IMG/VR virus record: IMGVR_UViG_3300018476_000481
Coordinates: 1-50,102 of that record
DNA: 50,102 bases
From: a virus
Direction: 5' to 3' (one strand)
Positions 16,753 through 48,983 of the stretch are shown piece by piece (positions within the stretch are counted from its first letter, which is position 1; each line of letters opens with the position of its first letter). The notes beneath the pieces are model-generated. The model saw only the letters and a list, made by a program, of their open reading frames with translations, did not search any database and was not told the DNA's origin. The translations under genes were made by a program, and so were the position numbers.

Positions 16753-19568
16753 GCGTTCACCCGCCGGAGAGCGGCTGCGAGCCGCGTCGTGGGTCCGACC
16801 GGTTTCCCGGCACCCGCGTTGTTTTCAAACTTCCGCAGCATGTCCTCGAGCACGACGTCACCGAGGTGGTTGTCCCCGACGTACAGCGCGACGGTGCCGG
16901 AGTAGTTCTTCACCACCGCCGGCTCGCGGCCGCTCGCGCCACTGCCCGTCACCGGCGGCCCGGCCGGCACAGCTCGACCGAAACCGCCGTTCAACCCTTG
17001 CGCGACGTCGGCCTTCACACGTTCGAGGAAGCGCGCGGCATCCGCGCTGGGACTGAGCTGATGGCGCGCGTGCTGCAGGTCCGTCGAGAGCCCGCGCATA
17101 TGCCGACCGGCCACGACGCTCGCCTCCGGCACGGCCTGCGCCAGCAAGTCGCGGATCTCTTTGAGGTAGTCCGCCATCTGCTGGAACGACGACTTGATGT
17201 CATCCGTCCAGGAGAATCCGGACGGGTCGATCGGGTTCCCCAGCTCGTCCTTGAGCAGCTGGGCACGGGCCAACTCGTCGACCCACGGCTTCATAAACGT
17301 GGGGAGGGCCGCGCCCGTCTTCTTCGCGTCGACCAGCAGCGCGCTCATTTCATCCGCAAGACCGGCGAGCAGCGCGCTCCGGTTGCTGCCGGCCTGCTCG
17401 GTCGCCATCGTGAGGAAGTTGTTGATTTCGTCGAAGGACGCACCCAGGCGAGCGGTGTTGATGCCGGCGCCGAGCGCCTCGCGGGCGACGCCGAACTTCT
17501 CGGCGCCCTCGTCCAGATACTTCCACGAGGGCTTGCCGGCCAACGCCTCGAGCGACTCCCTGGCCTGGTCCGCCAACAGATTCCACTGGAGGATGTCGTC
17601 GAGCAGACCCTTCAGCGGCCGCGGCGCGACCACCCCATTCAGCCCGGACACGAAATTCGACAGGCGGTCGACGGCCGATCCGACCGCCTCCGCGTTGGCT
17701 TCCGCGTCGGCCAGGAAGGCCTTCATGTCGGCCGACACGTGCTTCAGCGAGCTGAAATCCGTGCCCATCCGAATCAGGTGCGCGTGGATCTGCTCCTGGG
17801 AATAACCCATCTCGACGAGCGTCGCGGTCGTTTCCTTGATGGACTTCTGGTATTCCCGATGCTTCATCACCAGCGTCATCAGCGCCTGGACACCCAGACT
17901 GATCCCGAAGGTCAACGCGGCGTTCGCCGCGGCGGACGCGGCCGCCCGCGCGTTCTCCGCCACGGCCGCGGCCTCGCTGGCGGTAATTAAGCCAGCCAGT
18001 GCCTGTTTCTCAGCGTCCCTGGAGGCGGCAGCTGCTTTCGACGCCAGAACGAACAGCCGCGTGATGTTGGTCGCCTGCAGGCCGTACTGGGAAATCAGCT
18101 GAAAGGTCCGTGAGCCGGTTTGTCCAATGGCGCCAAGGAGAAGCTGCGCGGTCGACAACAGGTTGCTGTACCGCTGCAGGGCTGAGATGTCCTCCGGCGG
18201 CGGCGCCAGGCGCACAGGCTTGATCGAACCCGCGCGCTCCATCGCGGCAAGCAGGTCCGTGAAGTCCTTGGCCGAGGTCTTGAACAACGCCCGATCAAGC
18301 GGAGCTGGCGCCAGATGCACGGGCTTGATGGAGCCGGCGCGTTCCATCAGGTCGAGCGTCTTTTGAAAATCCGTACTGGTGTCGATCTTGAAGCCGGCGA
18401 CCAGGTCAGACCACGCCGCCTTGAAATCCTTCAGCACCTTCGGGAGCGGGATGCCCGCCTGCTCGAAAGCCTTGATCTTCTCGAGTAGCCCAGGAATCTG
18501 GGAAAACAGAATGACGCTCTGCTTCTGCGCAAGCTCGAGCGTGCCCGCGAACTCGCGCATTTCCTTCGCGAGGCCACGCGAGGTCAACGCGTCGACGGAC
18601 CGTTGCAGCGACTCCGCTTGCCGCTGGCGCTCGTCGGCCTCTCGCTTGAGCTCTGCTTCGGACTTCGGCTTCGGCCCGTCCGGCGCCAGCGGAATGTCCC
18701 GGCCTGGCACCGTCTTCGGTTTCTTGTCTGCACCAACGCCGAACAATGCGGCGGTGTCCGATCCCATGATGGCCGTGGCCAGAATCGGATGGTCTTCCCA
18801 GAACTTGACGATGGAGCCGAGGCCTTCGATCGCCTTCGCCGTAGCGTTCGACTGAAACTGCGCCCATCGATCGCCCATGTCATCGATCCGGCGCACACTC
18901 TCATCCGTCGCGATCTGGGTCGCGGCTTTGATCTTGTCGATGTCCGCGACGACCCCTGGCGCGATCTCCGCCCACGCCTTCCCGTACAGCGCGACGCCGA
19001 TCCGGTTGCGCTCCCCGGTGTCGGTGATGTCGTGGAGTTTCTTGGCGATCAGCTCGAACTGCTGTTCCGGATTCAACGCCTTGACTTGCTGCAGACTGAG
19101 GCCGAGGTCGCGCAAGGCATCTTTCGTGGCGTTGCCGCCCTGCGCGATCGTGACGCCGAGTTTGAAAATCCCTTTCGCATAGGTCTCGATGTCGCCACCG
19201 GCCTGCTTCGCCACGGCACTGTAGAGCTGCACCGCGCGAATACTGAGACCGGTCTTGTCGGAAAGGTCGACGATGTTGCCGGCCGTTTCGACGGCCTGCT
19301 TGGCAAAATTGATGAGGGCGCCCGCGCCTTGCTGAACGAGGTTGGCGGCCGAGAAGGCACCAACCATCCCGATGAACGCGCCCTTGACGTCGAGGAACTT
19401 TTTGGCGGCCTCGGTGGCCTGGCCGGCCATCCCCTGGAAGCCGGTCTGGGTGGTCTTGGCGGTGGTGCGCGCCGTGCTGAGACGCGTAATGACCTCGTCC
19501 AGCCCACGCTTCATGGACTGAACGTCCGTCGAGAGCTCGAGGACGACCTTCTCGACTTCCGTACTCAT
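16749..19568 (-). CDS. Tail tape measure protein
   Basis: 939 residues, long and mostly helical. The N-terminal region has typical tape-measure features: coiled-coil start, hydrophobic Ala/Gly-rich segment (about 60-85), and ALRDLGLSLQQVKALNPEQQ followed by FELIAKKL. A second hydrophobic segment lies near residues 540-570. It sets tail length and takes part in DNA delivery. It is directly downstream of the tail assembly chaperone frame by ATGA overlap, as in lambda. Length would correspond to a tail of roughly 140 nm if the usual 0.15 nm per residue applies. An internal 35-residue duplication is listed separately. Confidence 0.9.
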   Translation of the reverse strand: MSTEVEKVVLELSTDVQSMKRGLDEVITRLSTARTTAKTTQTGFQGMAGQATEAAKKFLDVKGAFIGMVGAFSAANLVQQGAGALINFAKQAVETAGNIVDLSDKTGLSIRAVQLYSAVAKQAGGDIETYAKGIFKLGVTIAQGGNATKDALRDLGLSLQQVKALNPEQQFELIAKKLHDITDTGERNRIGVALYGKAWAEIAPGVVADIDKIKAATQIATDESVRRIDDMGDRWAQFQSNATAKAIEGLGSIVKFWEDHPILATAIMGSDTAALFGVGADKKPKTVPGRDIPLAPDGPKPKSEAELKREADERQRQAESLQRSVDALTSRGLAKEMREFAGTLELAQKQSVILFSQIPGLLEKIKAFEQAGIPLPKVLKDFKAAWSDLVAGFKIDTSTDFQKTLDLMERAGSIKPVHLAPAPLDRALFKTSAKDFTDLLAAMERAGSIKPVRLAPPPEDISALQRYSNLLSTAQLLLGAIGQTGSRTFQLISQYGLQATNITRLFVLASKAAAASRDAEKQALAGLITASEAAAVAENARAAASAAANAALTFGISLGVQALMTLVMKHREYQKSIKETTATLVEMGYSQEQIHAHLIRMGTDFSSLKHVSADMKAFLADAEANAEAVGSAVDRLSNFVSGLNGVVAPRPLKGLLDDILQWNLLADQARESLEALAGKPSWKYLDEGAEKFGVAREALGAGINTARLGASFDEINNFLTMATEQAGSNRSALLAGLADEMSALLVDAKKTGAALPTFMKPWVDELARAQLLKDELGNPIDPSGFSWTDDIKSSFQQMADYLKEIRDLLAQAVPEASVVAGRHMRGLSTDLQHARHQLSPSADAARFLERVKADVAQGLNGGFGRAVPAGPPVTGSGASGREPAVVKNYSGTVALYVGDNHLGDVVLEDMLRKFENNAGAGKPVGPTTRLAAALRRVNA
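18201..18348. repeat. Internal duplication in tape measure gene
   Basis: The segment encoding MERAGSIKPV(H/R)LAP occurs twice, 35 codons apart (DNA copies at about 18201-18243 and 18307-18348). One 35-residue step in a tape-measure helix would lengthen the tail by about 5 nm, so this looks like a recent in-frame length change. Confidence 0.75.
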
Positions 19569-19960
19569 CGCGGCACGTGACGCACGCCGATGCCCATGCC
19601 GCGCAGCTCCGCGTTCGTCGGCGCGGTGGACTGGTCAGGCGAGGCGAGACGATGCCAGCCGTCCAGAATCGCCTGGGCCGCATCGGGCGACGCGAACGAG
19701 CCGGTGCCCGAGGCGATCTGGAGCCGCGCGGCCAGGGACTCGCTGGCCTGCAGCTTGGGCACGCGAGCGGCGTAACTGCGCACCATGGCTAACGGGAACC
19801 GGACCCACCAGTCGAGCGGGTCGCCACCGTAGAACCGCGTGAGCTCGGGGATGAGGTCGATCCACTCTTGCGGCCGTCCGGCCGCAACCCGGCGAGCGCT
19901 TTCACTGCCTCGGCCGACGTCAGTGAAAGTCGAATAAAAACCGTGACGATGTCCCCGCAC
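19565..19960 (-). CDS. Tail assembly chaperone, frameshift (T-like) extension
   Basis: This frame is -1 relative to the upstream chaperone gene. Its convincing part starts near 19870 (EWIDLIPELTRFYGGDPLDW) and runs to 19565, where the stop overlaps the tape-measure ATG. It has no ribosome site, and its only in-frame start (19960) lies deep in the upstream gene. As in lambda G/GT, it is most likely read by -1 ribosomal frameshifting from 19789-20277. If slippage occurs at the T-run, the fusion would be about 237 residues. Confidence 0.7.
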   Translation of the reverse strand: MRGHRHGFYSTFTDVGRGSESARRVAAGRPQEWIDLIPELTRFYGGDPLDWWVRFPLAMVRSYAARVPKLQASESLAARLQIASGTGSFASPDAAQAILDGWHRLASPDQSTAPTNAELRGMGIGVRHVPR

Positions 19961-20277
19961 TGGTTCGCCGTCAGCTTGCGCACCAGCGCCGGCGGCGCCA
20001 CGAGGACGGCCTTGACGATCTTGAGGACGACCGCGTTGAACGCGTTCTCCGCGGCCTGCTGCGCCTGGCGCGACCGGCGCCGCTTTGGCGTCAGGGCCGC
20101 ATCGCCCAGCTCGAACATGCGCTGGATGTCGCGAATGACCTGTTGACTGTCAAGGATCGAGAAGTCGTCGAACCGCCGCAGCGTGTACGACTCGCCATCG
20201 ATCTTGATGACCAGGCGCGCGGGGGTTTCGGTCGACAGGTCAAGGAGTGGAGTGATCGGCTTCTGCGTGGGGGCCAT
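19789..20277 (-). CDS. Tail assembly chaperone (G-like)
   Basis: 162 residues. Residues 1-130 look natural: a beta-rich start (RLVIKIDGESYTLRRFDDFS) then helices ending in SLTSAEAVKALAGLRPDG. The last about 25 are Ser/Arg-rich and look like out-of-frame translation of the overlapping T-like reading frame. Location between the tail-tube gene and the tape measure is diagnostic of the chaperone that coats the tape measure before tube assembly. Confidence 0.75.
   Translation of the reverse strand: MAPTQKPITPLLDLSTETPARLVIKIDGESYTLRRFDDFSILDSQQVIRDIQRMFELGDAALTPKRRRSRQAQQAAENAFNAVVLKIVKAVLVAPPALVRKLTANQCGDIVTVFIRLSLTSAEAVKALAGLRPDGRKSGSTSSPSSRGSTVATRSTGGSGSR
19935..19942 (-). other. Candidate -1 frameshift site
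   Basis: On the minus strand the 0-frame reads ACG GTT TTT ATT; a five-T run lets the TTT codon re-pair perfectly one base back, moving into the T-like frame, which is open from there to 19565. The P-site GTT to GGT match is imperfect, so this is not a textbook heptamer. An alternative slip anywhere down to 19864 would also join the frames. Confidence 0.4.
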
Positions 20278-20286
20278 GGGTGTTCT

Positions 20287-20487
20287 CTACGCCTCCGGGA
20301 CGATGGATAGGAGTCCGACGGGAGTGCCGAGCCTCCGGCTGTCGTGTAAGAGCGCTTGAAGTTCCTCCGCCGCCACCGAGAGCGCTTCTCGGTGGCGGCG
20401 GATTTCGCGTTTGTGGGTGTCGATAGCCGTGCGTTGGGTCGCGAGCCGCGACCGCAGCTCATCTGCGCTACGTGCCGGGTTCCGCAT
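20287..20487 (-). CDS. Small coiled-coil protein between tail tube and chaperone genes
   Basis: 66 residues from ATG at 20487, overlapping the end of the tail-tube gene by 20 bases. Content is almost entirely helical and charged (ADELRSRLATQRTAIDTHKR and EIRRHREALSVAAEELQALL), typical of a short coiled coil. The frame upstream of this ATG looks non-coding. No clear ribosome site is present, so the start is tentative. Confidence 0.5.
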   Translation of the reverse strand: MRNPARSADELRSRLATQRTAIDTHKREIRRHREALSVAAEELQALLHDSRRLGTPVGLLSIVPEA

Positions 20488-21076
20488 TCTGCTGCAGCAG
20501 CCGACCGAACCGCTCGTCGACGCTGGCGGCGTTCGGATCCACGAGGGCCTTGAACTTGAACAGCAGGCCGAACGGATCGCTCCGGCGCGCGACGGGGTTC
20601 GGCTCACCGATCTGGACGACGCGGGGAATCTCGTACTGCGCGACATAGTCGTCGCCGTACGCCGAGGCCCGCGTGCCACGAACCAGGAGCGCGAACTCGC
20701 TGAGGATGATGCCGCGCGACAGGCCCATCTTCTTGTAGCCGGCCGACCCGACACCTGGCGCGACCGTGCTCACCGTGTTCTGGTTGAGCGCCTGCGCGTG
20801 GACCTCGAGGCGCCAGTCGGCCACCGTGACCTCGATCATCAGGTCCTCGGTGTCGATGAACTCCTTGAGCGTCCCGGGATCCCCGAGGCCGCGGAAGGGC
20901 TTCGTGGTCATCGGATGCGTGATCTTGATCCCGTCATCCATGTAGTTCAGGTCGCCGTTCTGGCCAAGCTTCGTCCAGGCGATGGGCGGCGTGGTGAGCA
21001 GCGCCGGGAACGTCGCGCCGACCGCGGCGTAATAGAGGGTCAGGGGCGCGGCATGAACTTCGTACGGTGGGGGCAT
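20468..21076 (-). CDS. Major tail tube protein (V-like)
   Basis: 202 residues, beta-rich, strong ribosome site (AAGGAG, 8 bases upstream of ATG). Position after the Z- and U-like genes and before the chaperone equals lambda gene V. The sequence has the features of siphophage tube proteins, including a long middle with DLMIEVTVADWRLEVH and a C-terminal region FGLLFKFKALVD. It polymerises into the tail tube around the tape measure. Confidence 0.75.
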   Translation of the reverse strand: MPPPYEVHAAPLTLYYAAVGATFPALLTTPPIAWTKLGQNGDLNYMDDGIKITHPMTTKPFRGLGDPGTLKEFIDTEDLMIEVTVADWRLEVHAQALNQNTVSTVAPGVGSAGYKKMGLSRGIILSEFALLVRGTRASAYGDDYVAQYEIPRVVQIGEPNPVARRSDPFGLLFKFKALVDPNAASVDERFGRLLQQNAEPGT

Positions 21077-21088
21077 ATGCGCTTCTCC

Positions 21089-21673
21089 TTATGAGCCAGA
21101 CCGACCGAAGCTCGATCGGATGGCGAACTTGAGTTCCGACGACATGGTTTTTGCGAGCTGCATCTCGCCGCGCGTGACTCCGGCGGAGGCGTACTTCACG
21201 GCCACGTGCGCGATCGACGGGCCGTGGAGCTCGACGATGGCCTGGCGCCGCGGCTGCCGGCGCATCCGCCGGTTCGGGTCACGCCGGAAGACGCCGCGGT
21301 GACCGCTCGGCATCTGCGCGATGAAGGCATGCGGGTAACGCTTGCGGCCGCCGCTCGACATCGCCGTGACGACTCCGCGGCCACGGCTGGGGTACGGTCC
21401 TCGGGCGGCAAACTTGATGAGCGGCAGGCGTTTGGCTCCAGCCGAGAGCTTGGCCGTCAATCGAGCCGGCAGGGCTTCGCGCTCGTACAACACCTTTCGC
21501 ACGTCGCCAACCGTCAGCCCGACGTCCTTCGCCGTCAGCCGCCCCACAACGACCTTGGCACTCCGCAAAGCCCTGTTGATCGCCCGGCTGGCGGCCACAG
21601 GCGCGTCGGCGCCGAGGTGCCGGAACGCGGCCTCCGCGACTTCGCTGTGCAATCGGCAGACGGTTCCAGCCAT
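21089..21673 (-). CDS. Minor tail protein, Z-like
   Basis: 194 residues from ATG at 21673 (GGAG five bases upstream; TAATG overlap with the previous gene). It is basic, with an N-terminal AAFRHLGADAPVAASRAINR and KVVVGRLTAKDVGLTVGDVR as in the lambda Z / minor tail protein family. A Lys/Arg-rich middle precedes a C-terminal helix. It probably helps complete the tail end that joins the head. The open frame continues upstream without coding character. Confidence 0.7.
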   Translation of the reverse strand: MAGTVCRLHSEVAEAAFRHLGADAPVAASRAINRALRSAKVVVGRLTAKDVGLTVGDVRKVLYEREALPARLTAKLSAGAKRLPLIKFAARGPYPSRGRGVVTAMSSGGRKRYPHAFIAQMPSGHRGVFRRDPNRRMRRQPRRQAIVELHGPSIAHVAVKYASAGVTRGEMQLAKTMSSELKFAIRSSFGRSGS

Positions 21674-22140
21674 TACGACTCCGGTGCTCCCCAGACTTCC
21701 GTGATGGGCACGAGATACGGCACCACCGCGCCGATCACTGAACTGCCCGCTTCCCGCTCGCGCGTCCGCACCGCGCCGCGCCGCATCCGTTCGTACGCCA
21801 GGTTGCCGAGGTACCGATCCTCGAGCTCGATCGCTTGCTTCACGTCGGCGATCCCCGCTTCGACGTTGAACCACGAACAGTCAGGCGCCGCGGGGACCAG
21901 CACGTGAATCTCGACCGGCAGATCGAGCTGCAACTTCTCCATCTGCCGGTTGCTCACTACCTCATCGCCGACGAGAATCGCGAGGACACCACCGGGGTCA
22001 TCCGGCCCAAGTTCGACAACCTCCTCCAAGTGCACGAAGTCGCCGAGGTTGGTCCGGAATCCGTTTGGAATTGTGATGCGCTCAAGGCGAGCCTTGATGG
22101 CCTCCAGGACGAGCTGTCGCTTTGGCGTCGTTGTGCTCAT
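21673..22140 (-). CDS. Tail terminator / completion protein, U-like
   Basis: 155 residues. The opening helix (QLVLEAIKARLERITI) and central strands (VLAILVGDEVV, LDLPVEIHVLVPA) followed by a helix (VEAGIADVKQAIELEDRYLG) match the phage tail terminator fold (lambda U / gp-U like). It should cap the tail tube. It overlaps the upstream connector gene by ATGA. Confidence 0.7.
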   Translation of the reverse strand: MSTTTPKRQLVLEAIKARLERITIPNGFRTNLGDFVHLEEVVELGPDDPGGVLAILVGDEVVSNRQMEKLQLDLPVEIHVLVPAAPDCSWFNVEAGIADVKQAIELEDRYLGNLAYERMRRGAVRTREREAGSSVIGAVVPYLVPITEVWGAPES

Positions 22141-22457
22141 CCCCTCACCACAAACACGCGATAGTGGTCGTCCTCAACCTGCACAGGTCCGTCGACGATC
22201 CACACCTCTGCCGTCCGTCCGGCCACCATCGGGGCCACCACTTTGGTACCCCTCGGCACTGCTTCGACCTCATCGAGCCGCAGCGCCAGAATCCGCCGTG
22301 GCTCCCTTTTTCCGAACTGCCCACCAGGCGGCTCGACATCCTGGAAGGGCGAGATCCAGACGACCGTGGTCTCGACGGCCGCTTGATCCGGGGGTGTGAC
22401 TGTGGCCGGCACCCCGAACGCGTCAAAGAACGACGCGACGGGCGGACGCGCATCCAT
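22137..22457 (-). CDS. Head-tail connector, FII-like
   Basis: 106 residues, beta-rich (TTVVWISPFQDVEPP, AEVWIVDGPVQVEDDHYRVF). Small size and its position between the major capsid gene and the Z-like gene fit the head-completion/joining protein FII of lambda. Another frame nearly as long overlaps it, but this one has natural residue composition and coupled ends. Confidence 0.65.
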   Translation of the reverse strand: MDARPPVASFFDAFGVPATVTPPDQAAVETTVVWISPFQDVEPPGGQFGKREPRRILALRLDEVEAVPRGTKVVAPMVAGRTAEVWIVDGPVQVEDDHYRVFVVRG

Positions 22458-26738: not shown

Positions 26739-26786
26739 CAGTGTCGTACCGATCTCTGACGGCCGGGGTTTTCTGGTTACAGAAAC
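26739..26786 (-). promoter_or_regulatory. Late-promoter-like bipartite element, copy 2
   Basis: Minus strand: the same 19-base block as copy 1 (26786-26768), 18 bases, then GTACGACACTG (26749-26739). It lies directly ahead of the gpW-portal-head-tail operon and overlaps the last codons of the ribbon-helix-helix-like gene, whose TAA stop is inside the palindrome. A start of transcription near 26736 is inferred from TACGAC as -10. Confidence 0.7.
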
Positions 26787-27007
26787 GGGTCGCGAAGACG
26801 CGCCGCGTCATGCCCCGGTGTGGCGGTTTCAGCACCGCCGACGGCGGGTCTAGACCTGCTCGGCTGAGCTTTGGTCAGGGCCTCGAGCATGAGCGCATGG
26901 ATCGTCGTCCCCGTTCGAAGCGCATAGATCGCGTATGCGTCGTGGACAGACGCGGGCAGCCGAATCGTGACGCTGCTCATGGGCACGTTCTTCCGCGGCC
27001 GCGCCAT
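26777..27007 (-). CDS. Ribbon-helix-helix-like small protein
   Basis: 76 residues. MSSVTIRLPASVHDAYAIYA followed by LRTGTTIHALMLEAL fits the beta-helix-helix plan of CopG/Arc-type DNA-binding proteins. The last about 25 residues look disordered. It overlaps the glycosyltransferase gene upstream by TGATG. Its stop codon falls in the late-promoter-like palindrome, so it may be a regulator of that site, but no binding evidence exists. Confidence 0.6.
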   Translation of the reverse strand: MARPRKNVPMSSVTIRLPASVHDAYAIYALRTGTTIHALMLEALTKAQPSRSRPAVGGAETATPGHDAARLRDPFL

Positions 27008-27741
27008 CAGGCCACCGCCCGAGCGAGCGCCTCGGCCTCAAGGTTCCGCCAGATCCGCACCAGCTCGCGATGGTGCCAGGTCGGCTCCACGCAGAACACC
27101 ATCCGGCGCAGCGAGGTCTTGACGTGCACGATCCGCGTGACCGCGGCGTCGAAATCCGACCAGCTCGTGTCTTCGCAGTTCCACTCGAGACATGGCAGCT
27201 GCAGGAGCCGAAGGGACTCGCCGATCGGCGTCTCGAACACGGCGCCGAGCGCGGCCTGGTTGATGCCACCAAATCTCGAGCGCCAAGCCTGGTGATACAC
27301 GCGGTCAACGAGCATCAGCTCGTTCATGGCCAGCCAGGCCTCGACGAACCCGCGCGTGCGGGCGGTCACGCGCAGGAACACCACGCCGGCGTTGAACGGA
27401 TAGATCGCCGATCGGCGCACGGTGTAGGCAAGATCGAAATCGAGCGCCCACACGTCATCCAAGGGACGGAGGATGACGGTGTCCGAGTCGACGAGCGCGA
27501 GCAGCTGGCCGTCGCCGGCGGCGCGCACGGCGTCGACCCAGTGCCGCAGCTTTACGGTGTTGGCCAGACTGGCGTCGTCAACGCGCGGACTCGAGGGGCG
27601 AGTTGGCGTCGGCAGCGCGGAGATCTGCCGGTCCCACGTCGAGCAGTGCGTCTCGGCGGAGTGCGCGAGAACGCGCGCGAGCCGGTTCCACTGACCATCG
27701 CGGTCGTCGCCGAAGTAGCACGACACGAGCCGCGGAATCAC
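27007..27741 (-). CDS. Glycosyltransferase-like protein (GT-A fold, GT8-type)
   Basis: 244 residues. The central LLALVDSDTVILRPLDDVW supplies a DxD metal/nucleotide-sugar site; flanking regions (YPFNAGVVFLRVTART, NQAALGAVFE) match GT8-like enzymes that hold a UDP-sugar. The C-terminus carries WNCEDTSWSDF and HVKTS. It sits between terminase and gpW genes, an uncommon place for such an enzyme. Substrate is unknown; see the sugar-enzyme cluster at 30982-34454. Confidence 0.7.
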   Translation of the reverse strand: MIPRLVSCYFGDDRDGQWNRLARVLAHSAETHCSTWDRQISALPTPTRPSSPRVDDASLANTVKLRHWVDAVRAAGDGQLLALVDSDTVILRPLDDVWALDFDLAYTVRRSAIYPFNAGVVFLRVTARTRGFVEAWLAMNELMLVDRVYHQAWRSRFGGINQAALGAVFETPIGESLRLLQLPCLEWNCEDTSWSDFDAAVTRIVHVKTSLRRMVFCVEPTWHHRELVRIWRNLEAEALARAVA

Positions 27742-27789
27742 GTCGACCAGCGTCGCATGATCTCGACCGGTCGGCCGACCGTCGAGGGG

Positions 27790-28002
27790 TCATACTGCCA
27801 GTTTTTTTCGGCGGAGCGACGGCTTGTGTCGAAGGAAGCGCTCGAGCGGTAGATCGCAGACGTTCACCCACTCGTGATTGCAAGCCTGACACCATCGGTG
27901 ACGTGCAATCGTGAGCGTCTTCCGGTTGACGTCGGTCTTGGTGACGACGTTCCGAGTGGAGCGGCATGCCTGATTTGGGCACGTCACCGGTAAGTACACC
28001 AT
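27790..28002 (-). CDS. Small zinc-ribbon protein, possibly Ogr/Delta-like
   Basis: 70 residues. CPNQAC near the start and CQAC about 25 residues later form a four-cysteine zinc-binding pattern followed by NHEW, close to the pattern of Ogr/Delta-type late activators of P2-like phages. The spacing is not identical (CxxxxC then CxxC), so it is a tentative match. If a regulator, the paired late-promoter-like elements are natural targets. Confidence 0.5.
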   Translation of the reverse strand: MVYLPVTCPNQACRSTRNVVTKTDVNRKTLTIARHRWCQACNHEWVNVCDLPLERFLRHKPSLRRKKLAV

Positions 28003-28008
28003 CGACGT

Positions 28009-29931
28009 TCACCGGTCGAGATAGCCACTGCGCCCGACGCGCGGCCGCGGAGCCCACGCCGGAGCTGGCAGCGGCGTCGCCGGCGGCGCGCCGTCCGGTG
28101 GCGGCGGCTGCGGCATCGCCGCCCTCAGCGCGTCGAGCATCTGCCGAATGTTCGGATTGAACAGCCGCAGCGCGGCCAGGGCGAGCACGGAGGTATCGAG
28201 CGCCTCGTTTCGATCACGGTCCTGCACCCACACCACGTGCGTGGCCACACCCGCGCGGCTGTACCGCGTCTCGGGATGTTCCGCGCAGAGCTGGGCGAAG
28301 TACTCCTCGTCGACAGTGTCGAGGTGCAGCGGAAAGTGGATGTAGCCGGGCCCGGGCGCCGCGAGCGCAAGCGCCGCCATCACGTCGCTCTTCGCGTCGT
28401 CGACGTTGATGGGATACAGCCGCACCGGCCGGGCCGACCGGCCTGAGCGCTTCTCCGACGGTTTGCCGACGATCGGCTCACCGCTGCGGCCGGCAATGCC
28501 CTTTGTCGCGAAGATCCGCCGGCTCTGATAGGCCAGCACGAAGTCATAGACCTCGTCGGTCGCATACCCGGAGTCGATGCAGGTGGCGTGAATCGGCAGC
28601 TGCGCGCCGCACGCGTGGGTGTACTTCCGGCCGAGCGCCTCGAGCAACGCGGCCCGCGTCTCGGCGTGCTTCGGATTCCCAGGAATCGATCGGACGTCGA
28701 CGACCCAGCGCTCCATGGCTTGGCCCCACGCCACAACTTGCAGCTCGAAGCGGTCCTCCTGCACGTCTACGCCGGCGGTCAGCGCGACGGCCGAGGCCGG
28801 CACCTCCACGTTCTCGCCGCCGTACTCCTCGCGTCGCGTGACCAGGCTCTGCGGATTCATGCGCGACCCTCGGTTCTCCCAGCCTTCCGCCAGATAGGTG
28901 TTGATGAACACGCGCAGGCTCTCGGTGCCGCGCTCGCGGCCGGCGAGCCACCGCTCCACCAAGTCTGGAAGCGTGACGGCGCCGAGGGTGGACACCATCG
29001 CCGGCAGGTGAAACCCGATCAGTCCGGCTTCCTTCGCCGGCACCGTCGGCCGCCAGACGCCGCCAGCGACCATGGCGCGCCGCATCGGCTCGGTCAAGTG
29101 CGCGCCGCATCCGCCGTGCTCCGCATCTGGGCATTCGATCCGAGCCGAGGACGCGGCCTTCTCGTCGAACACCACGCGGAAGTGCTTCGGGTCTTTCCAG
29201 GTGATCCAGTCCTGGCGGCCGCAGCTCGGGCACGCCACGAAGTACCGGCGCTGATCGCTGCGCTTGTACATCGTGTCGATCCGGCCGTCGACGAGCGTGG
29301 GCGTCGAGACGAAGATCGTCAGCCCGTCGTAGAACGTGCGCGTCCGGTTCTCGAGCAGCTCGGCCGGGTCGCCTTCATCGCCGACGACCGCCGGAAAACG
29401 ATCAACGTCGTCCCCCATCGCGATGCGGACTGTGCGGCGTGCGAAGGTGTTGGGCGTATTCGCCCCACCCAGGGCGAGATACCCGTTTGGGAATAACTTC
29501 AGGGTCAGCGTGCTCTCCGCCTGGCGGCCGCCGCGGCGGGTTTTGCTTTCACTGACGATCGAGTCGAGCGCCGGCGTAGAACGCACCATGTCCTCGAGGC
29601 GCTCCTTCGACCACTCCTGCGCGACTTCCTTCGACGGGTGGACCATCAGCATCGGACACGGGTCGTGCTGAATGAAGTAGCCGAGGATGTTGTGCAGGCA
29701 TTCCGACCCGCCGACCTGCGCGCTCTTGATGAGCGCGATGCGCCGGACGGTCGGCTCGTGAACGGAGTCCATGATGCCACGCAGGTACGGCGTCGTCGCC
29801 GTCCGCCAACGCGCGCCCCTGGCCGCACTGGTTTCCGGCAGCCGGCGGTGCAGGTCCGCCCACTCACTGACGGTCAGGTTCGCCGGCGGAGCGGCCGCCT
29901 CCGACCAGGCGGCAATCAGACTCGTGCTCAT
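28009..29931 (-). CDS. Terminase large subunit, lambda gpA type
   Basis: 640 residues. The ATPase has a Walker-A-like region RIALIKSAQVGGSE and a Walker-B-like RIAMGDDVDRFP. Further GpA-family features are FARRTVRIAMG, YFVACPSCGRQDW with a zinc-type CPSCG, and the C-terminal nuclease region (LTAGVDVQEDRFELQV ... CIDSGYATDEVYDF). It packages DNA into the prohead and cuts it, with the small subunit at 30422-30985. It overlaps the DUF1643 gene by ATGA. Confidence 0.92.
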   Translation of the reverse strand: MSTSLIAAWSEAAAPPANLTVSEWADLHRRLPETSAARGARWRTATTPYLRGIMDSVHEPTVRRIALIKSAQVGGSECLHNILGYFIQHDPCPMLMVHPSKEVAQEWSKERLEDMVRSTPALDSIVSESKTRRGGRQAESTLTLKLFPNGYLALGGANTPNTFARRTVRIAMGDDVDRFPAVVGDEGDPAELLENRTRTFYDGLTIFVSTPTLVDGRIDTMYKRSDQRRYFVACPSCGRQDWITWKDPKHFRVVFDEKAASSARIECPDAEHGGCGAHLTEPMRRAMVAGGVWRPTVPAKEAGLIGFHLPAMVSTLGAVTLPDLVERWLAGRERGTESLRVFINTYLAEGWENRGSRMNPQSLVTRREEYGGENVEVPASAVALTAGVDVQEDRFELQVVAWGQAMERWVVDVRSIPGNPKHAETRAALLEALGRKYTHACGAQLPIHATCIDSGYATDEVYDFVLAYQSRRIFATKGIAGRSGEPIVGKPSEKRSGRSARPVRLYPINVDDAKSDVMAALALAAPGPGYIHFPLHLDTVDEEYFAQLCAEHPETRYSRAGVATHVVWVQDRDRNEALDTSVLALAALRLFNPNIRQMLDALRAAMPQPPPPDGAPPATPLPAPAWAPRPRVGRSGYLDR

Positions 29932-30425
29932 TCAGGCTTCACCAGTTCAACGGAATACGGAACGTACAGCGGGTGCTGGGGCTGGCCGTCTTTCAGTAGT
30001 CGCAGTGCCATCGTCCGCGGCGCCGCCAGGATGAGATCTGCTCTCGTCTTCGCGACCAGCGAGAGTTTCTGCGCGCCCCACGCCGCGACCACTAGGTCGC
30101 AGCGGTTCAAAATGTCGACAAGATACAAGCCGTTGTCAGGACCAACAGCCTGCGACTCCAGGCCGCTCCGGCACATCTGCGCGATTCGCTTCGGATCCTT
30201 GCTTCGCCACGCATACAGATTCAGCATGTAAAGCCAGTCAAAGCCCCATCGCCGCGCGAAGCCAACACACTTCCGAATCGTCGGGTCATCCTTCGCCGCA
30301 TCCGCCGTCGACGGGTTGAGACCCACAAACGCAACCGACCGCTCACCCATCGACAGGCGCCTGGCCAACCAGTAGCGGTACAACCCATCGCTGCTAACGA
30401 AGGCGTCAGTCGTCAGGTATTTCAT
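29928..30425 (-). CDS. DUF1643-family protein
   Basis: 165 residues. FVGLNPSTADA, DDPTIRKC and WGFDWLYMLNLYAWRSKDP are typical of DUF1643, a family seen in phages and bacteria; its biochemical function is unknown to me. It lies between the two terminase genes, overlapping each by 4 bases, so it is made with the packaging motor. Base composition is slightly lower in GC than its neighbours, which suggests insertion. Confidence 0.8.
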   Translation of the reverse strand: MKYLTTDAFVSSDGLYRYWLARRLSMGERSVAFVGLNPSTADAAKDDPTIRKCVGFARRWGFDWLYMLNLYAWRSKDPKRIAQMCRSGLESQAVGPDNGLYLVDILNRCDLVVAAWGAQKLSLVAKTRADLILAAPRTMALRLLKDGQPQHPLYVPYSVELVKPE

Positions 30426-30985
30426 CCGGCGTCCTCGTTTTGCTTACTCGCCGCACCCGCGTCCTTCACGGCCTTCCATCGGTTGATCTCGTCGCAGATG
30501 TCCCGACACAGCGCCGTCATTGGCGGTTCGAACTCTCGCGACACGATGCCGGCCTGCACCGCGCGCCGCGGCAGTGCCATCACCTGAGTCACCCAGCCCT
30601 TTATGTAGGCCTGCCCTTCGCGAACCACGACGGCGCGCGAGACCACCTCTCCGCGCTCGCGCTGCAGCTTCAGCTCGTTGAGCTTCGCGGAGGCCTCGTA
30701 CGCGCGCGTCTGCGCAGCCTCCTTCGCATTCTTCCCCTGGCCCTTCCGCCACCAGTCCATGCAGGCGATGGCGTCATACGTGCTCCGGCGCCCGTGGCCA
30801 CCCGTCGTCACTACCGGCATGCCCTTCGTCGTGAAGTCCGTAACCGTGTCCGGGTGCACGCCCATCAGCTTCGCGAGCTGCGCCCGATCGACGAATGGAA
30901 AGGCCAGCGCGGTCTTCTTCGACTTCTCCGGCTTCTCGCCGGCAGCTGGTTTCGCCGCGCCGTTGTCCGGCGGCTGGTCCGTCAT
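30422..30985 (-). CDS. Terminase small subunit, Nu1-like
   Basis: 187 residues. After a Pro/Lys-rich start, residues about 33-80 form the winged helix of Nu1 (DRAQLAKLMGVHPDTVTDFT ... GMPV). A helical region follows with RAYEASAKLNELKLQRERGE, which is the dimerisation/large-subunit contact region. It recognises cos sites in lambda-like phages. It precedes DUF1643 and TerL in one operon. Confidence 0.85.
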   Translation of the reverse strand: MTDQPPDNGAAKPAAGEKPEKSKKTALAFPFVDRAQLAKLMGVHPDTVTDFTTKGMPVVTTGGHGRRSTYDAIACMDWWRKGQGKNAKEAAQTRAYEASAKLNELKLQRERGEVVSRAVVVREGQAYIKGWVTQVMALPRRAVQAGIVSREFEPPMTALCRDICDEINRWKAVKDAGAASKQNEDAG

Positions 30986-31578
30986 GGCGAGGGCAGCTGG
31001 ATCCGGATCGACGGATTCTTCTCAGGCCCTCGACACGGACAGTTCGCCGCCCGCGGCGTGTCCTGTGGCAGCTCGTCACCGAAGGCGCGCCGCCAGTGGT
31101 AGACGTACAGACTCTCGAGCAGATAGACCCGCCGGCCGGCGCGGCGCAGCGCGAAGTGCATCTGGTGGTCGACACAGAACAGCCCGTCAACGAACCCGCC
31201 GGCTTCGCGCCAGGCTGACTTCGAGAGACAAAACAGCACGCCGCCGAACCCCTGCGTCATCGTGATGTCGAGCAACGTCCGCTGAGCGAGGCGGGCCCGG
31301 CCGATCTTCCGGTGATAGGCGATGTCGTGGTTATCGAGGTCGGCCTCCTGCGCGCGCTGCCAGGATGCTGCGATGCGGTTCGTGACCGCCACAAATGCGC
31401 CGGTGTCCGGGAACGCCGTGACCGCTTCCTCGAGCTGCCGGTACCACTCGCGCGTCGTCAGCATCATGTCGTGGTCGAGGAAACAGGCCCAGCCGTCTTC
31501 CGGGACGAGCGACATCGCCTGGTTGTATGCAGCGCCCAGATTGCGGTCGGACGAGAACGGCGTCATGGCGACGATCAC
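30982..31578 (-). CDS. Glycosyltransferase family 2-like protein
   Basis: 198 residues, GTG start at 31578 in a GTGA overlap (GGAG eight bases upstream). FLDHDMMLTTREWYRQLEEA supplies the acidic sugar-binding motif; GFGGVLFCLSKSAWREAGGF, then VDGLFCVDHQMHFALRRAG and YHWRRAFG match the C-terminal acceptor region of GT2 enzymes. Short for the family, so a compact GT-A core. The acceptor could be DNA, virion protein or surface glycan; nothing here decides. Confidence 0.75.
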   Translation of the reverse strand: MIVAMTPFSSDRNLGAAYNQAMSLVPEDGWACFLDHDMMLTTREWYRQLEEAVTAFPDTGAFVAVTNRIAASWQRAQEADLDNHDIAYHRKIGRARLAQRTLLDITMTQGFGGVLFCLSKSAWREAGGFVDGLFCVDHQMHFALRRAGRRVYLLESLYVYHWRRAFGDELPQDTPRAANCPCRGPEKNPSIRIQLPSP

Positions 31579-32312
31579 GACTGAAACTCCACGGCGGCCA
31601 CCGCAGCAGCCAAAGGCATCCAGTGGTCGCGGACCCATGGATAGCGGTGATCGTTCAAGACCTCGAGGTCCGCACTGCCCAGCACGACGATGCGGGCGCC
31701 GGCGCCCAGCTCGCGCCGAGATGGGCCGACGCCAAACCCCTCGAACCGCGCGTAGCCCGCGCCGTAATACGTGACGAATCCATCGTCCTCAGTCCAGAAG
31801 GGAATCGTCGGCTGCGAACGCAGCCAGTAGTTGAGCATCGCCTGGTCAGAACCCACACCGGTTGGCCAAGCGATGAAGGGGAATCCCTTTGGGTCAGCCT
31901 GATATCGGCGCCACGCACCGTCCAGCGCACCGACGTCACATAGAACAAAGCTGCCGCTGAAGACGCCGGCATGGCCGACGCGCCACCCGACAATCGGTTC
32001 TGGTCGGTCGACGATCGGCGTGATGTCGTCGACGAGCACGACGTCGAGGTCGATCGCCAGCATGCGCCGACCGAACTGGGCTGCCCACTCCCGGCTGTAT
32101 TGGAACATCCGGCGACGACACCGAAGATCGCCGTCCACCAGCGGCGCGGGCAACGCCACCGGCACAATGTCGCGGTGGAGTCCCGTTGCGTCGTCCGTCA
32201 CGCAAAACAGGCGATGCTCCAGATGGAGGTGCCGCTCGAGCGCCGCGCGCAGCACATTCACGTGAAGCGGACCGAATCGCGTGCCCCACTTCCAACACAC
32301 CACGCTCAACAT
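31575..32312 (-). CDS. Glycosyltransferase-like protein
   Basis: 245 residues from ATG at 32312. RRMLAIDLDVVLVDDITPIV gives a DxD-type motif; GVGSDQAMLNYWLRSQPT resembles the conserved acceptor region of GT8/GT32-type enzymes. It overlaps the hypothetical gene upstream by 7 bases and the next glycosyltransferase by GTGA. It probably acts in the same pathway as its neighbours. Confidence 0.7.
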   Translation of the reverse strand: MLSVVCWKWGTRFGPLHVNVLRAALERHLHLEHRLFCVTDDATGLHRDIVPVALPAPLVDGDLRCRRRMFQYSREWAAQFGRRMLAIDLDVVLVDDITPIVDRPEPIVGWRVGHAGVFSGSFVLCDVGALDGAWRRYQADPKGFPFIAWPTGVGSDQAMLNYWLRSQPTIPFWTEDDGFVTYYGAGYARFEGFGVGPSRRELGAGARIVVLGSADLEVLNDHRYPWVRDHWMPLAAAVAAVEFQS

Positions 32313-32623
32313 GACGCCGCCTCCGAGCTGACGTCTGCGCGGTGCCATTCGCCGGCGGCGTCGCGGTACTCGACCGCTGATTCGGTGTAGATCCAGATCG
32401 AGGCGTCGAACCGCGTGCCGCGGGCGTGCGCGCGCTCGACCCCCCATCCGTATTCGGTCCACGCAAGGCCGACGAAGCGCACCTGATGGACCTTCTTTTG
32501 CCAGCCCTGGCCGTCATCGGCACGGACTTCCGTGAGCACGATGACGGGATCCGGCGGACGGTTCGCCGCCATGTTGGCGCGGTGCACCAGGACGTCGACG
32601 CTGACCTGATAGCCCTTCGTCAT
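32306..32623 (-). CDS. Hypothetical protein in sugar-enzyme cluster
   Basis: 105 residues, mixed beta (VIVLTEVRADDGQGWQKKV, RFDASIWIYTESAVEYRD). No family is recognised. It lies between the deacetylase and a glycosyltransferase, coupled by overlaps, so it is probably part of their pathway or a carrier. Confidence 0.6.
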   Translation of the reverse strand: MTKGYQVSVDVLVHRANMAANRPPDPVIVLTEVRADDGQGWQKKVHQVRFVGLAWTEYGWGVERAHARGTRFDASIWIYTESAVEYRDAAGEWHRADVSSEAASC

Positions 32624-33243
32624 GCGACAAACTTTCGACCACGGCGGCGCCGCGGAGCATTCCGCGCTGGACGTCGAGACTGCGCAGGCGGCGCCGCAGC
32701 GGGCTGCGTGCCGCCGGCGTCACTCGCAACGTATTCATCGAGCTCGAACTGGTCTTCGTCGAAGAACATCCGCGCGCGCGGGTGCTGGCGCTGCGTCCGA
32801 TAGCACGACAGCGCCAGGCGCTTCAGCTCGGGCCACTCCGCATCGACCGGCACACGCTGCCCGAGGCGCACCTTTCCGGCCGCGTCGTACGTGTGGTACG
32901 CAACCAGCCGGTCGCCAAACACGGCGGCCGCGACCGTGGCCACCGTCACGTGGTCAGGATGGGAGGCGTTCGGGTCGGGCGCCCACACCCGGGTCGGCTG
33001 CAGCCTGGCGTCCACATCCCGCATTTCACGCTCGAGGTCTAGTGCGTCAGCGACGCACCACATGGCGACGTCCTCGACGCCAGCCATCCGCATCGCGGCG
33101 CAGCTCTCCTCTAGACGCTCCCCGGTCGAGCCGTAGTCCCGCACGCTGGGAAAACAGATCACGACGCCTGGGCGATGGCGCAGCACGGTGTAGAACGCGA
33201 AGAGCGTCTCGTCGTCAGAATGCGGAGCGAATAGGAGAGTCAC
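32620..33243 (-). CDS. PIG-L/LmbE-type deacetylase
   Basis: 207 residues; GTG start in a GTGA overlap. LLFAPHSDDETLF near the N-terminus and NASHPDHVTV (about residue 95-105) are the metal-binding motifs (PHxDDE and HPDH) of the PIG-L/LmbE family, which remove N-acetyl groups from GlcNAc-type substrates. The C-terminal 35 residues are Arg/Ala-rich and extra. With neighbouring glycosyltransferases, it suggests synthesis or editing of an amino-sugar product. Confidence 0.85.
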   Translation of the reverse strand: MTLLFAPHSDDETLFAFYTVLRHRPGVVICFPSVRDYGSTGERLEESCAAMRMAGVEDVAMWCVADALDLEREMRDVDARLQPTRVWAPDPNASHPDHVTVATVAAAVFGDRLVAYHTYDAAGKVRLGQRVPVDAEWPELKRLALSCYRTQRQHPRARMFFDEDQFELDEYVASDAGGTQPAAAPPAQSRRPARNAPRRRRGRKFVA

Positions 33244-34454
33244 CGTCTCAATCCCTCAATGAAAAACACGTCGGGCGGCGCGCCGTGCTGGGCCTGAATC
33301 AGCACGCCGCTCCGGAACATGCTCGACCTGGCGTTCAGGTCGTAGGCCACGAAGTCGGCCTCCTCGAGGAAATACCGGACGAACGCCGGACTGGTCATGG
33401 TCACGGCCGGCTCGGACCCGCGCCAGCCACCCCGCCGCGAACTCTTCGGGTGAACGGTGTCGTCCTCGGTGATACGCACAACGCCGGCGGGTTCTAAGAC
33501 CCGCGCGAGCTCCGCGAACAACGCCGGCCAGTCAGCCTCGTGGACGTACATCAGGGCGTGCGAAATGGAGATGCCTGCCACCGACCCCGTCGCGATCTGC
33601 GGCAGCCCGTCTTCGAAGACCCATCCGAGACTGCGGTCGAGGTTCACGAACCCGGGCATCGGGTGCCAGGACGGCGACCCCGGCGTGCCGCACCCGAGAT
33701 TCAGCAGCAGAGGGCCGGCGGCCGCCGGCGGCAGGGTGACCGGCAGCCCGGCGTGGTGGCGGCCGTCCCGCCGCTTGCGGTACGTGGCCAAGACATCAGG
33801 GATGTAGCGCACCCGGGCATGCGCAGCCAGGCGGTACAGGAAGTGCCAGTCTTCCGGCTGGTGGTCGCTGAACCGAATGTCGTCGGTCAGGACCGCGCGC
33901 CGAATGAGTGGCGCCATGATCGGAATGAAGTTGGCGACCGCCAACTGGTCTCGAATCCATCCGCCGAGGTTGCGGTCACCGTACCGGTACTGCTCGGACG
34001 CCAGGCGACGCCGGCCGCGGCTCTCGTCGTCGATCTGGACATCGCACAGCACCCAGCCGACGTCGTCGCTGAACGCGGCGAGCTGGCGCTCGACCTTGGT
34101 CGGGTCGATCACGTCGTCGGCATCCAGGAACATCACGAACTCGCCGGACGCTGCCGCGAGGCCAGCATTGCGCGCCGCGCTCGGTCCGCCGTGAGTGATG
34201 GACACCACTCGAATACGGTCGCCAAACAACGCCAACATCTCGGCGGTGCCGTCGGTCGAGCCGTCGTCGACCACAATGACCTCGCACCGGCAAGTCTGGG
34301 CCAGCGCGCTATACACGGCCTCCTTCAAGAACGCCGCGTGGTTGAACGTCGGGATGATGATGGTGGCGGCGGTAACCTGCTGAGCCACCGTACCTTCCGG
34401 CGGTGACGCTCCACCGTACCGTCCACCAATTGCGCGTTCGCCGGGCTGATTCAC
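33240..34454 (-). CDS. Fusion of GT2 glycosyltransferase and SAM methyltransferase
   Basis: 404 residues, GTG start with AGGGG six bases upstream. Residues about 30-255 are a GT2 domain (TIIIPTFNHAAFLKEAVYSA, VDDGSTDGT, FLDADDVIDP). Residues about 245-404 are a class I methyltransferase-like domain, with LLLNLGCGTPGSPSW as motif I, then IATGSVAGISISHALMYVH. The order is glycosyl transfer followed by methylation in one polypeptide. It is the first gene of the packaging/sugar operon and follows the largest intergenic gap. Confidence 0.8.
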   Translation of the reverse strand: MNQPGERAIGGRYGGASPPEGTVAQQVTAATIIIPTFNHAAFLKEAVYSALAQTCRCEVIVVDDGSTDGTAEMLALFGDRIRVVSITHGGPSAARNAGLAAASGEFVMFLDADDVIDPTKVERQLAAFSDDVGWVLCDVQIDDESRGRRRLASEQYRYGDRNLGGWIRDQLAVANFIPIMAPLIRRAVLTDDIRFSDHQPEDWHFLYRLAAHARVRYIPDVLATYRKRRDGRHHAGLPVTLPPAAAGPLLLNLGCGTPGSPSWHPMPGFVNLDRSLGWVFEDGLPQIATGSVAGISISHALMYVHEADWPALFAELARVLEPAGVVRITEDDTVHPKSSRRGGWRGSEPAVTMTSPAFVRYFLEEADFVAYDLNARSSMFRSGVLIQAQHGAPPDVFFIEGLRR

Positions 34455-34611: not shown

Positions 34612-34917
34612 TCACCGACTCGATCGATCGCGCGGACCGTACTGATACGGACGCTCTGACTGCTCGCGCTCGCGCGCCACGTTGACGTTCAGCCGACGAT
34701 CCATGAACCGTTGACCGTTCAGGTCGCCTTCGGCTTTGCGCGCGTCGTCCGCGCTCTCAAACTCCACGAAGCCGAAGCCGCGCGACTTCCTCGTCTCACG
34801 ATCGAGTGGGATGCTCACACGCACCGGCGCGTGACCGGCGTCCTTGACGAAGTCGGTCAGGTCCTCTTCAGTCGCACTGAACGGCAGATTACCTACGAAC
34901 AGCTTCTTGTTCTCCAT
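34612..34917 (-). CDS. RNA recognition motif (RRM) protein
   Basis: 101 residues. A nearly complete single RRM: RNP2 KLFVGNLPF, helix SATEEDLTDFVKDAG, RNP1 KSRGFGFVEF and DDARKAEGDLNGQRFMDRRL. The C-terminal 20 residues are Arg-rich. RRM proteins bind single-stranded RNA. Similar short RRM proteins occur in cyanobacteria, proteobacteria and other bacteria, but a prophage copy is unusual. It is the last gene of the early operon, with a good ribosome site (AGGGGAAAC before ATG). Confidence 0.88.
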   Translation of the reverse strand: MENKKLFVGNLPFSATEEDLTDFVKDAGHAPVRVSIPLDRETRKSRGFGFVEFESADDARKAEGDLNGQRFMDRRLNVNVAREREQSERPYQYGPRDRSSR

Positions 34918-36638: not shown

Positions 36639-37319
36639 TTACGCGGCTCCCTGCTGCTGGCTCGCGTTCGAACCGGCCTTGTCGTCCTGGTGACCCTTGT
36701 CCGGCGTCGGAGTACGCCGCTGGAACGCGGCCGGCGTATCCATCCCGTTCGACTGCCGCTGCGCACACCAGCCCTCATCCCACGCCGCGCGACACGGATC
36801 GCCGGCGCGATACGGGTTGTCGTAGACACGCTGGCCAGCGGCGGCAGCAGCGCCACCCTCTTTTCTGGCCTCCTCGGGGTCCTTGGGTGGAAGGAGCGGT
36901 GGCTGCTGCGGGAGCGAAGGCTGGTCCGCATCCGGCGCGTGTGGTGCGCCCTCGTCTCCGGGCGCGGAGCCAGGCGCCGGCGAATCCTGCGGCGGCTCTC
37001 CCGGACGAGAAGCTGGCGTCGCGGCCTTACTGTCGAGCCGGCGGCGCGCCTCATCCGTCAACGGATCCCCTTCAAGCATTCCAAGTGCGGCCAGGTAGAT
37101 CACTTCGAGCGCGCGTCGCTCCTGCCGCTGCTCCGGCGTCATCTTCCGCAGCTTCAGCACGACCTTCAGCGTCCCGGTGTCGTAGCCGTCAGCCTGAGCA
37201 TGGTCAAAGCGGGCTTTCAGCGCATCGGCAGCGTCCTGCTTCTTGTCCTCGAGCAGCTCGAGTTCTTGCACGTGATACACGAGCCGCTGGCGAGGCGTCC
37301 GCCTGTCGTAAATGCTCAT
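36639..37319 (-). CDS. GapR-like (DUF2312) DNA-binding protein with extended tail
   Basis: 226 residues from ATG at 37319 (AGGAG seven bases upstream). Residues about 10-85 match GapR: QELELLEDKKQDAADALKAR and DGYDTGTLKVVLKLRKMTPE, then RQERRALEVIYLAALG. GapR binds overtwisted DNA ahead of replication and transcription. A long Pro-rich region follows, then NPYRAGDPCRAAWDEGWCAQ, which resembles the ribosome modulation factor/CrpP-type motif. The combination is unusual. The upstream frame extension looks non-coding. Confidence 0.75.
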   Translation of the reverse strand: MSIYDRRTPRQRLVYHVQELELLEDKKQDAADALKARFDHAQADGYDTGTLKVVLKLRKMTPEQRQERRALEVIYLAALGMLEGDPLTDEARRRLDSKAATPASRPGEPPQDSPAPGSAPGDEGAPHAPDADQPSLPQQPPLLPPKDPEEARKEGGAAAAAGQRVYDNPYRAGDPCRAAWDEGWCAQRQSNGMDTPAAFQRRTPTPDKGHQDDKAGSNASQQQGAA

Positions 37320-37933
37320 CGTCGATCTCCTACGAGAAACCCGTGTTGAATCAGAAACGCCGTCAGCGCGTCGACGCCGCCCATGACGTGCGCGATCCCG
37401 CGGTTGAAACACTTCTGCTGAAACCGGAGCTGCGCCTCTGAGGGCACGCCGTCCTCGGCCTTCACTTCGTGCCAGACGCACGTCGGCGTGACGGCGCCGG
37501 GCTTCGCGAGCGGCGCGCAGGCCGGCAGGAAGACCCAGAGGTCGCAAATGCCGGGCGTCTGCATCGTCCCCTGGTGGTCGCCGCGGCGCCGGCGCGTGCC
37601 GAGCACGTAGATATCCGTTTCGTCCTTTGCGCTGTAATGGCAGCCGATGGCGACGTATAGGGCGATGCAGTCGCGCTGGACGACCTTCTCCGACGCGCAG
37701 GCGCGTGGCCGGGGCGCCTGGCCGCGCGCGCGGGCCTTCCGTCTCCCGTAGGCGGGCCGGCCGCAGAACTTGCAGCGGCCGCGCTCATAGAGACAGGGCG
37801 TCGTGCACTTCGGGCGCGGCGACGCGGGGGCGAGCGACGGGCGGATCCGTGTCCGGCCGACGACCGTGCGGCCGCGGCGAGGCTCGAGGCCGGCACCGGC
37901 GAGGATGGCCGCGAATGGGTTCTGGCGACTCAT
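37316..37933 (-). CDS. VRR-NUC-type nuclease with zinc-finger-like segment
   Basis: 205 residues from ATG at 37933. CTTPCLYERGRCKFCGRPAY (about residues 37-56) is a four-cysteine zinc-finger-like segment. Residues about 110-200 match VRR-NUC (PD-(D/E)XK): GICDLWVFLPA, CVWHEVKAEDGVPSEAQLRF and the following C-x-x-x-G-I-A helix. It may resolve branched DNA during replication or recombination. ATGA overlaps on both sides. Confidence 0.75.
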   Translation of the reverse strand: MSRQNPFAAILAGAGLEPRRGRTVVGRTRIRPSLAPASPRPKCTTPCLYERGRCKFCGRPAYGRRKARARGQAPRPRACASEKVVQRDCIALYVAIGCHYSAKDETDIYVLGTRRRRGDHQGTMQTPGICDLWVFLPACAPLAKPGAVTPTCVWHEVKAEDGVPSEAQLRFQQKCFNRGIAHVMGGVDALTAFLIQHGFLVGDRR

Positions 37934-48975: not shown

Positions 48976-48983
48976 GACGAGCC

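Follow-up and report, generated by a model that had tools for sequence, protein, structure and literature searches.

Why would a temperate tailed phage carry a row of sugar-modifying enzymes among the genes that package its DNA? We asked this of IMG/VR virus record IMGVR_UViG_3300018476_000481, a temperate tailed phage with a lambda-type head, which was analyzed over its full length of 50,102 bases (the window). Four predicted glycosyltransferases (GT1 to GT4), a methyltransferase-like domain (MT) fused to the first of them, and a PIG-L-type deacetylase stand together with the terminase and portal genes. We consider it probable that they are a horizontally exchanged late virion-glycosylation set that works like those of the mycobacteriophages Corndog and Che8. 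The enzymes of the set are:

33240..34454, minus strand: GT1-MT, a fusion of a GT2-family glycosyltransferase with a class I S-adenosylmethionine-dependent methyltransferase-like domain
32620..33243, minus strand: PIG-L/LmbE-type sugar de-N-acetylase (Pfam PF02585, 1e-8)
31575..32309, minus strand: GT2, a glycosyltransferase of predicted GT-A fold with a DLD motif (start most likely TTG at 32309)
30982..31578, minus strand: GT3, a glycosyltransferase with a DHD motif and a C-terminal CPCRG motif (phrog_14179)
27007..27741, minus strand: GT4, a glycosyltransferase of predicted GT8/glycogenin-like GT-A fold with a DSD motif and a conserved CLEWNCED motif

A preliminary description, made from the DNA letters, had recognized four glycosyltransferases, a methyltransferase-like domain, and a PIG-L protein embedded in the packaging operon, and this is borne out by protein families, folds, gene fusion, and a location that is kept in relatives. 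In GT1-MT, the transferase part (residues 31-226) contains a DADD motif and matches Glycos_transf_2 in Pfam (PF00535, 3.6e-34); a DXD-like motif is present in all four glycosyltransferases. The methyltransferase-like part (residues ~249-404) has the motif LNLGCGT/VNLD, and its motif I, LNLGCGT, is invariant in five aligned sequences. The deacetylase retains intact metal motifs (PHSDDE and SHPDH) that agree with the family motif (P/A)HxDDE and HxxH; residues H8, D10, D11, E12, H95, and H98 are invariant in five sequences, and its profile matches the LmbE-related structure 2ixd and BshB (6p2t; 5e-5). GT3 matches phage glycosyltransferase family phrog_14179 (1.6e-20 in PHROGs). Its start is most likely the GTG at 31578, within a GTGA junction, although the listed open reading frame (ORF) reaches 31638. 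A sequence search of the Protein Data Bank (PDB) with GT3, and another with the neighboring DUF1643 protein, gave no match. Neither Pfam nor PHROGs has a match for GT2 or GT4. AlphaFold models built from alignments of relatives nevertheless make both clear predicted GT-A glycosyltransferases. The GT2 model (mean predicted local distance difference test score [pLDDT] of 86) has its best PDB matches in ABO transferases (GTA/GTB) and UGGT (E of ~3e-8), and the GT4 model (mean pLDDT of 93) matches glycogenin (E of 5.7e-9) and also a capsid glycosyltransferase of Chlorella virus PBCV-1.

The preliminary description had proposed comparing the operon among related prophages. We scanned viral contigs for relatives and then mapped the loci; short-pattern scans miss relatives, and all record counts are lower bounds. 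GT1-MT, PIG-L, GT2, GT3, and usually GT4 recur beside terL (the terminase large subunit gene) and the portal gene in at least about 10 distinct uncultivated phage records besides the window (L019, L016, L017, L018, L104, L105, L108, L109, L203, and L225, together with near-copies). A viral-contig scan with the 105-amino-acid unknown protein of the locus confirmed no relative, despite the 73% identical copy that exists in L016. In seven of the relatives (L019, L017, L018, L104, L105, L108, and L109), GT1-MT and PIG-L form a single uninterrupted frame, and they are separate genes in the window and in L016. Fusion in most relatives argues that the two proteins would act on one product.

These relatives have the set between terL and the portal gene, except that GT4 follows the portal gene in some records. 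GT4 is the most widespread member, and a portal gene lies within 3.4 kb of it in 52 of 60 viral loci; the other eight are on short contigs or have no detectable portal. The content of the interval varies, from GT4 alone (L007) to two GT3 copies plus GT4 (L021 and L110), and additional methyltransferase or glycosyltransferase genes are found in the intervals of other relatives. In relatives, the region upstream of the portal gene is one in which sugar-modifying genes tend to gather, a hot spot. Extra methyltransferase or glycosyltransferase genes were seen there at L007:3703-4452, L006:1005-1874, L009:1616-2404, and L117:8747-9286. A separate phage group (L118, L119, L120, and L122) carries a GT2-like gene, GT3, and a second GT2-like gene in a row, and no terL or portal gene of the kinds seen here lies near them.

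Searches of cultured phages returned little. The sole blastn match of the whole cluster to cultured phages was 109 bases of terL. Among 50,697 phage records searched by tblastn, GT4, PIG-L, and the methyltransferase domain had no relative at E <= 0.01, GT2 had only a marginal match (E of 0.01, to Tetraselmis virus records), and GT3 found only distant glycosyltransferases (~28%). With relatives of GT4, PIG-L, and the methyltransferase domain absent and that of GT2 marginal, the set is unrecorded in that collection. We also searched for a host. Ordinary GT2-family enzymes overwhelmed the results of a GT1-MT profile run on genome contigs, and no set or prophage was seen. Among 385 genomes from the same class as a Bradyrhizobiaceae bin, and 95 from the same phylum as a Rokubacteria bin, a GT3 profile found nothing.

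The records that carry the set have two types of head. The window, L018, and L019 encode lambda-type heads (Phage_cap_E plus decoration protein D). In the window, decoration protein D matches PF02924 at 1.6e-28 and capsid protein E matches PF03864 at 9.5e-95; the gpA terminase, portal, and a ClpP-like protease complete the head type there. L104, L105, L108, L109, and L016 encode HK97-like heads with a protease-capsid fusion (Phage_capsid_4, phrog_4523), and L017 was placed with them by its portal only. Between the window and the HK97-like records G002, G003, and G006, portal and terL are only 31 to 36% identical, and nothing in these three records matches the window's capsid, protein D, or protease. 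Across the same comparison, GT1-MT, PIG-L, GT2, and GT3 are 46 to 65% identical and GT4 is 44 to 48% identical. When the set was concatenated for nine records (1,011 columns), the resulting tree lacked the split by head type, and forcing the lambda-type rows together was rejected by the approximately unbiased test (p-AU = 0.0024), whereas the portal tree supported the split at 100/100. This conflict shows that the set has been exchanged between head types and that each time it has come to sit by the packaging genes.

Virion proteins common to both head types are the portal and the connector and tail genes in 16749-22457, which include the following:

20468..21076, minus strand: major tail protein, candidate acceptor for both head types (identified through its L104 and L109 homologues, which match phrog_117)

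The major tail protein is present in G001, G002, G003, G006, G007, G009, and G010. Because it is common to both head types, it would be the natural candidate if one acceptor serves both, and we put it forward tentatively, as a possibility that falls well short of an even chance.

The context of the set includes these features:

32306..32623, minus strand: 105-amino-acid unknown that separates PIG-L from GT2 (G002, which is L016, has a copy at 73% identity)
30422..30985, minus strand: terminase small subunit, Nu1-like (terS; context gene named by Pfam/PHROGs)
29928..30425, minus strand: DUF1643 (Pfam, 1e-33)
28009..29931, minus strand: terminase large subunit, gpA (terL; context gene named by Pfam/PHROGs)
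27790..28002, minus strand: 70-amino-acid zinc-ribbon-like protein (77% identical copy in L019)
26777..27007, minus strand: 76-amino-acid unknown (1-bp overlap with GT4)
46051-46791, plus strand: S24-type repressor
48885-50102, plus strand: integrase family

Transcription on the minus strand would run through GT1-MT, PIG-L, the 105-amino-acid unknown, GT2, GT3, terS, DUF1643, and terL, and past terL through the zinc-ribbon-like protein, GT4, the 76-amino-acid unknown, a gpW-like gene, and the portal gene; the last two were named by reading ORFs and their conservation. All of these genes are open at the coordinates given above, and the set's third-position guanine-plus-cytosine (GC) content of 77 to 87% follows the codon-position pattern of real genes in this genome. 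The 4-base overlaps of the preliminary description hold at exactly that length for seven consecutive junctions, from GT1-MT through terL. GT4 stands outside this chain, with gaps of 6 bp between terL and the zinc-ribbon gene and 48 bp between the zinc-ribbon gene and GT4, and an overlap of 1 bp with the next gene. That the genes would be expressed together and late, as had also been proposed, is supported by the gene fusion, the conserved location, and the overlap structure. A sigma-70-type factor encoded in the late region (6944-7675, minus strand; region 2 E of 4.5e-14, region 4 E of 5e-12) could direct late transcription of the phage.

DUF1643, which had been counted as part of the set, does not belong to it. 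It was absent from eight of eight related records and occurred only in the window among the nine records, and it is a passenger. GC contents of 0.60 for DUF1643 (29928-30425) and 0.57 for the zinc-ribbon gene (27790-28002), below the genome's 0.667, suggest that these two genes were acquired separately. Directly upstream of the sugar operon is a gene for an RNA recognition motif (RRM) RNA-binding protein (34612-34917, minus strand; PF00076, 3.7e-20), which is unusual for a phage and is unmatched in the seven related records used for comparison. Another ORF (36639-37547, minus strand) matches a GapR-like DNA-binding domain at 4.4e-13 and, weakly, ribosome modulation factor.

What do these enzymes modify? 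Virion proteins, host surface sugars, and DNA had all been left open as targets, and the evidence favors a virion protein, because both head lineages retain the location, which also matches the arrangement in Corndog, and because neither a base-hydroxylating gene nor a membrane or flippase gene was found. If the set instead altered the lipopolysaccharide (LPS) or capsular glycans of the cell or lysogen, it could block superinfection or the re-adsorption of progeny. GT1 does match GtrB-like O-antigen conversion families in PHROGs (E of 2e-9), and polysaccharide synthesis makes use of GT2-family enzymes, PIG-L, and methyltransferases alike. However, no protein of the set has a membrane segment (maximum 19-residue hydropathy value, 1.55), the families found in the Pfam scans of the window include no polyprenyl-phosphate glycosyltransferase and none of the parts of a GtrABC-type system (GtrA flippase and membrane-anchored GtrB/GtrC), and the set sits with packaging and head genes, away from the integrase and repressor, a position kept in relatives. 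We therefore regard a role at the host surface as unlikely. Decoration of DNA, in which the enzymes would add sugar to a modified base ahead of packaging or while it proceeds, could account for the nearby terminase and has a precedent in the glycosylated DNA of other phages (the T4 group); moreover, two relatives with the set encode a C5-cytosine methylase (G003:C1:9615-10301 and G004:C1:29004-31046). Such a methylase is nonetheless missing from the window and from six of eight relatives. The earlier observation that no base-hydroxylating gene is present also held, since no member of the thymidylate-synthase/pyrimidine-hydroxymethylase family was detected in the window or in eight related records by searches whose positive controls were detected. 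TET/JBP proteins were not found in a search without a positive control, and the Pfam scans of the window showed none of these families. This makes DNA a very unlikely target.

Two further explanations dispense with a macromolecular target or with a common function. The match of the deacetylase to BshB, an N-acetylglucosamine-malate deacetylase, would fit an amino-sugar compound that serves the phage within the cell and is made by a glycosyltransferase and PIG-L, as in bacillithiol or mycothiol synthesis. Yet four glycosyltransferases and a methyltransferase exceed what this needs, no ligase or acyltransferase partner turned up in the scans, and a late packaging location leaves little time for such a compound to act, so we give this explanation hardly any weight. 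The variable content of the terL-portal interval would, for its part, be expected of a tolerated hot spot for unrelated glycosyltransferases that share no function. Repeated co-occurrence of GT1-MT, PIG-L, GT2, and GT3 across head types, with the first two fused, speaks against unrelated cargo and leaves it quite improbable.

Several observations weigh against virion glycosylation as the function of the set. We infer it from the genes, and both the acceptor and the glycan are predicted. Shell proteins differ between the two head lineages, which excludes one shell acceptor common to both. The position between terL and the portal gene may reflect an insertion site tolerated for any late cargo. 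Late expression with the head genes is likewise what we infer, and a scan of the operon for sigma-70 promoters found none. The Methyltransf_25/11 matches in the C-terminal part of GT1-MT are weak (0.007 to 0.013, under the Pfam cutoff), which makes the methyltransferase domain the least certain of the predicted members. Finally, profiles of GT1 to GT4 had no convincing homology to Che8 gp108-110 (hhalign probability of <=58%, over 57 columns), and for this reason we describe the set as one that would work like that of Che8, by analogy, and not as a member of it.

Under virion glycosylation, the enzymes would be made late in infection, alongside the packaging and head proteins, and would draw on host nucleotide sugars as donors. 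One transferase would attach a sugar to a Ser, Thr, or Tyr side chain of a virion protein, and the remaining transferases would lengthen it. The GT1-MT-PIG-L unit would add an N-acetylhexosamine, remove the acetyl group to leave a free amine, and methylate the sugar. As acceptor we envisage the tail tube (present with either head type), the capsid shell, or both, and the outcome would be a particle with an altered surface. A more specific proposal, which we hold to be rather doubtful, is a mobile virion-glycosylation cassette with a three-domain transferase-methyltransferase-deacetylase at its core. Its target would be a tail protein that phages with unrelated heads have in common, and the particle would come to bear an amino sugar that is methylated and has a free amine. 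We know of no description of such a sugar on a phage particle.

Tandem glycosyltransferase sets for virion glycosylation are already known. In the literature searched, we found neither a deacetylase in such a set, nor one fused to a glycosyltransferase-methyltransferase, nor movement of a set between head types. In the literature examined, proven virion glycosylation of tailed phages is known from mycobacteriophages. The set suggests that it also occurs in uncultivated temperate phages, that it can be exchanged between unrelated heads, and that it may include deacetylation and methylation of the sugar. Virion glycans can change the surface properties of particles and their recognition by antibodies. 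The major tail protein offers a concrete candidate acceptor, and the GT1-MT-PIG-L fusion and the CLEWNCED motif of GT4 are signatures by which more sets could be found.

How does the set compare with known systems? Stenotrophomonas phage DLP3 has a cluster of PIG-L, WcaG, WecE, and methyltransferase genes, the phage also has DUF1643, and its authors propose LPS modification by its glycosyltransferase (PMC7326821). As here, a phage-borne PIG-L deacetylase lies near a methyltransferase and a glycosyltransferase, but the DLP3 genes (96-102) are far from the portal (gp1) and encode the nucleotide-sugar enzymes WcaG and WecE, which are absent from our set. The capsid glycosyltransferase of PBCV-1 (2p72/2p73), which acts on the virus's own capsid, has the GT-A fold of GT4 (TM-score of 0.65 by target length), although this likeness to an enzyme of a eukaryotic algal virus is at fold level only, with 10 to 12% identity. 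Che8, a cluster F1 mycobacteriophage that glycosylates its capsid, encodes a fusion of a GT2-family transferase and a methyltransferase (gp108), which resembles GT1 with its methyltransferase-like domain, followed by two glycosyltransferases (gp109-gp110) with 4-base overlaps. It differs in that its methyltransferase is of the TylF/Methyltransf_24 family, gp110 is a GT25 enzyme, and the three genes lie at the right end of the genome, away from the terminase and without PIG-L among their neighbors. The cluster O mycobacteriophage Corndog encodes an O-methyltransferase and three glycosyltransferases (gp35-gp38) between its portal and protease genes, and these enzymes were not detected as virion components (PMC4351075). 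Such enzymes are reported to modify the capsid and tail tube (PMC11600133, citing Freeman 2023; see also PMC12363180). Corndog infects an actinobacterium, no PIG-L deacetylase is mentioned for it, and the likeness is one of gene arrangement. The window shares with Corndog and Che8 several adjacent glycosyltransferase genes, and with Corndog their placement beside the portal gene within the virion structural operon, where the tandem row includes an O-methyltransferase in Corndog and a methyltransferase-like domain in the window.

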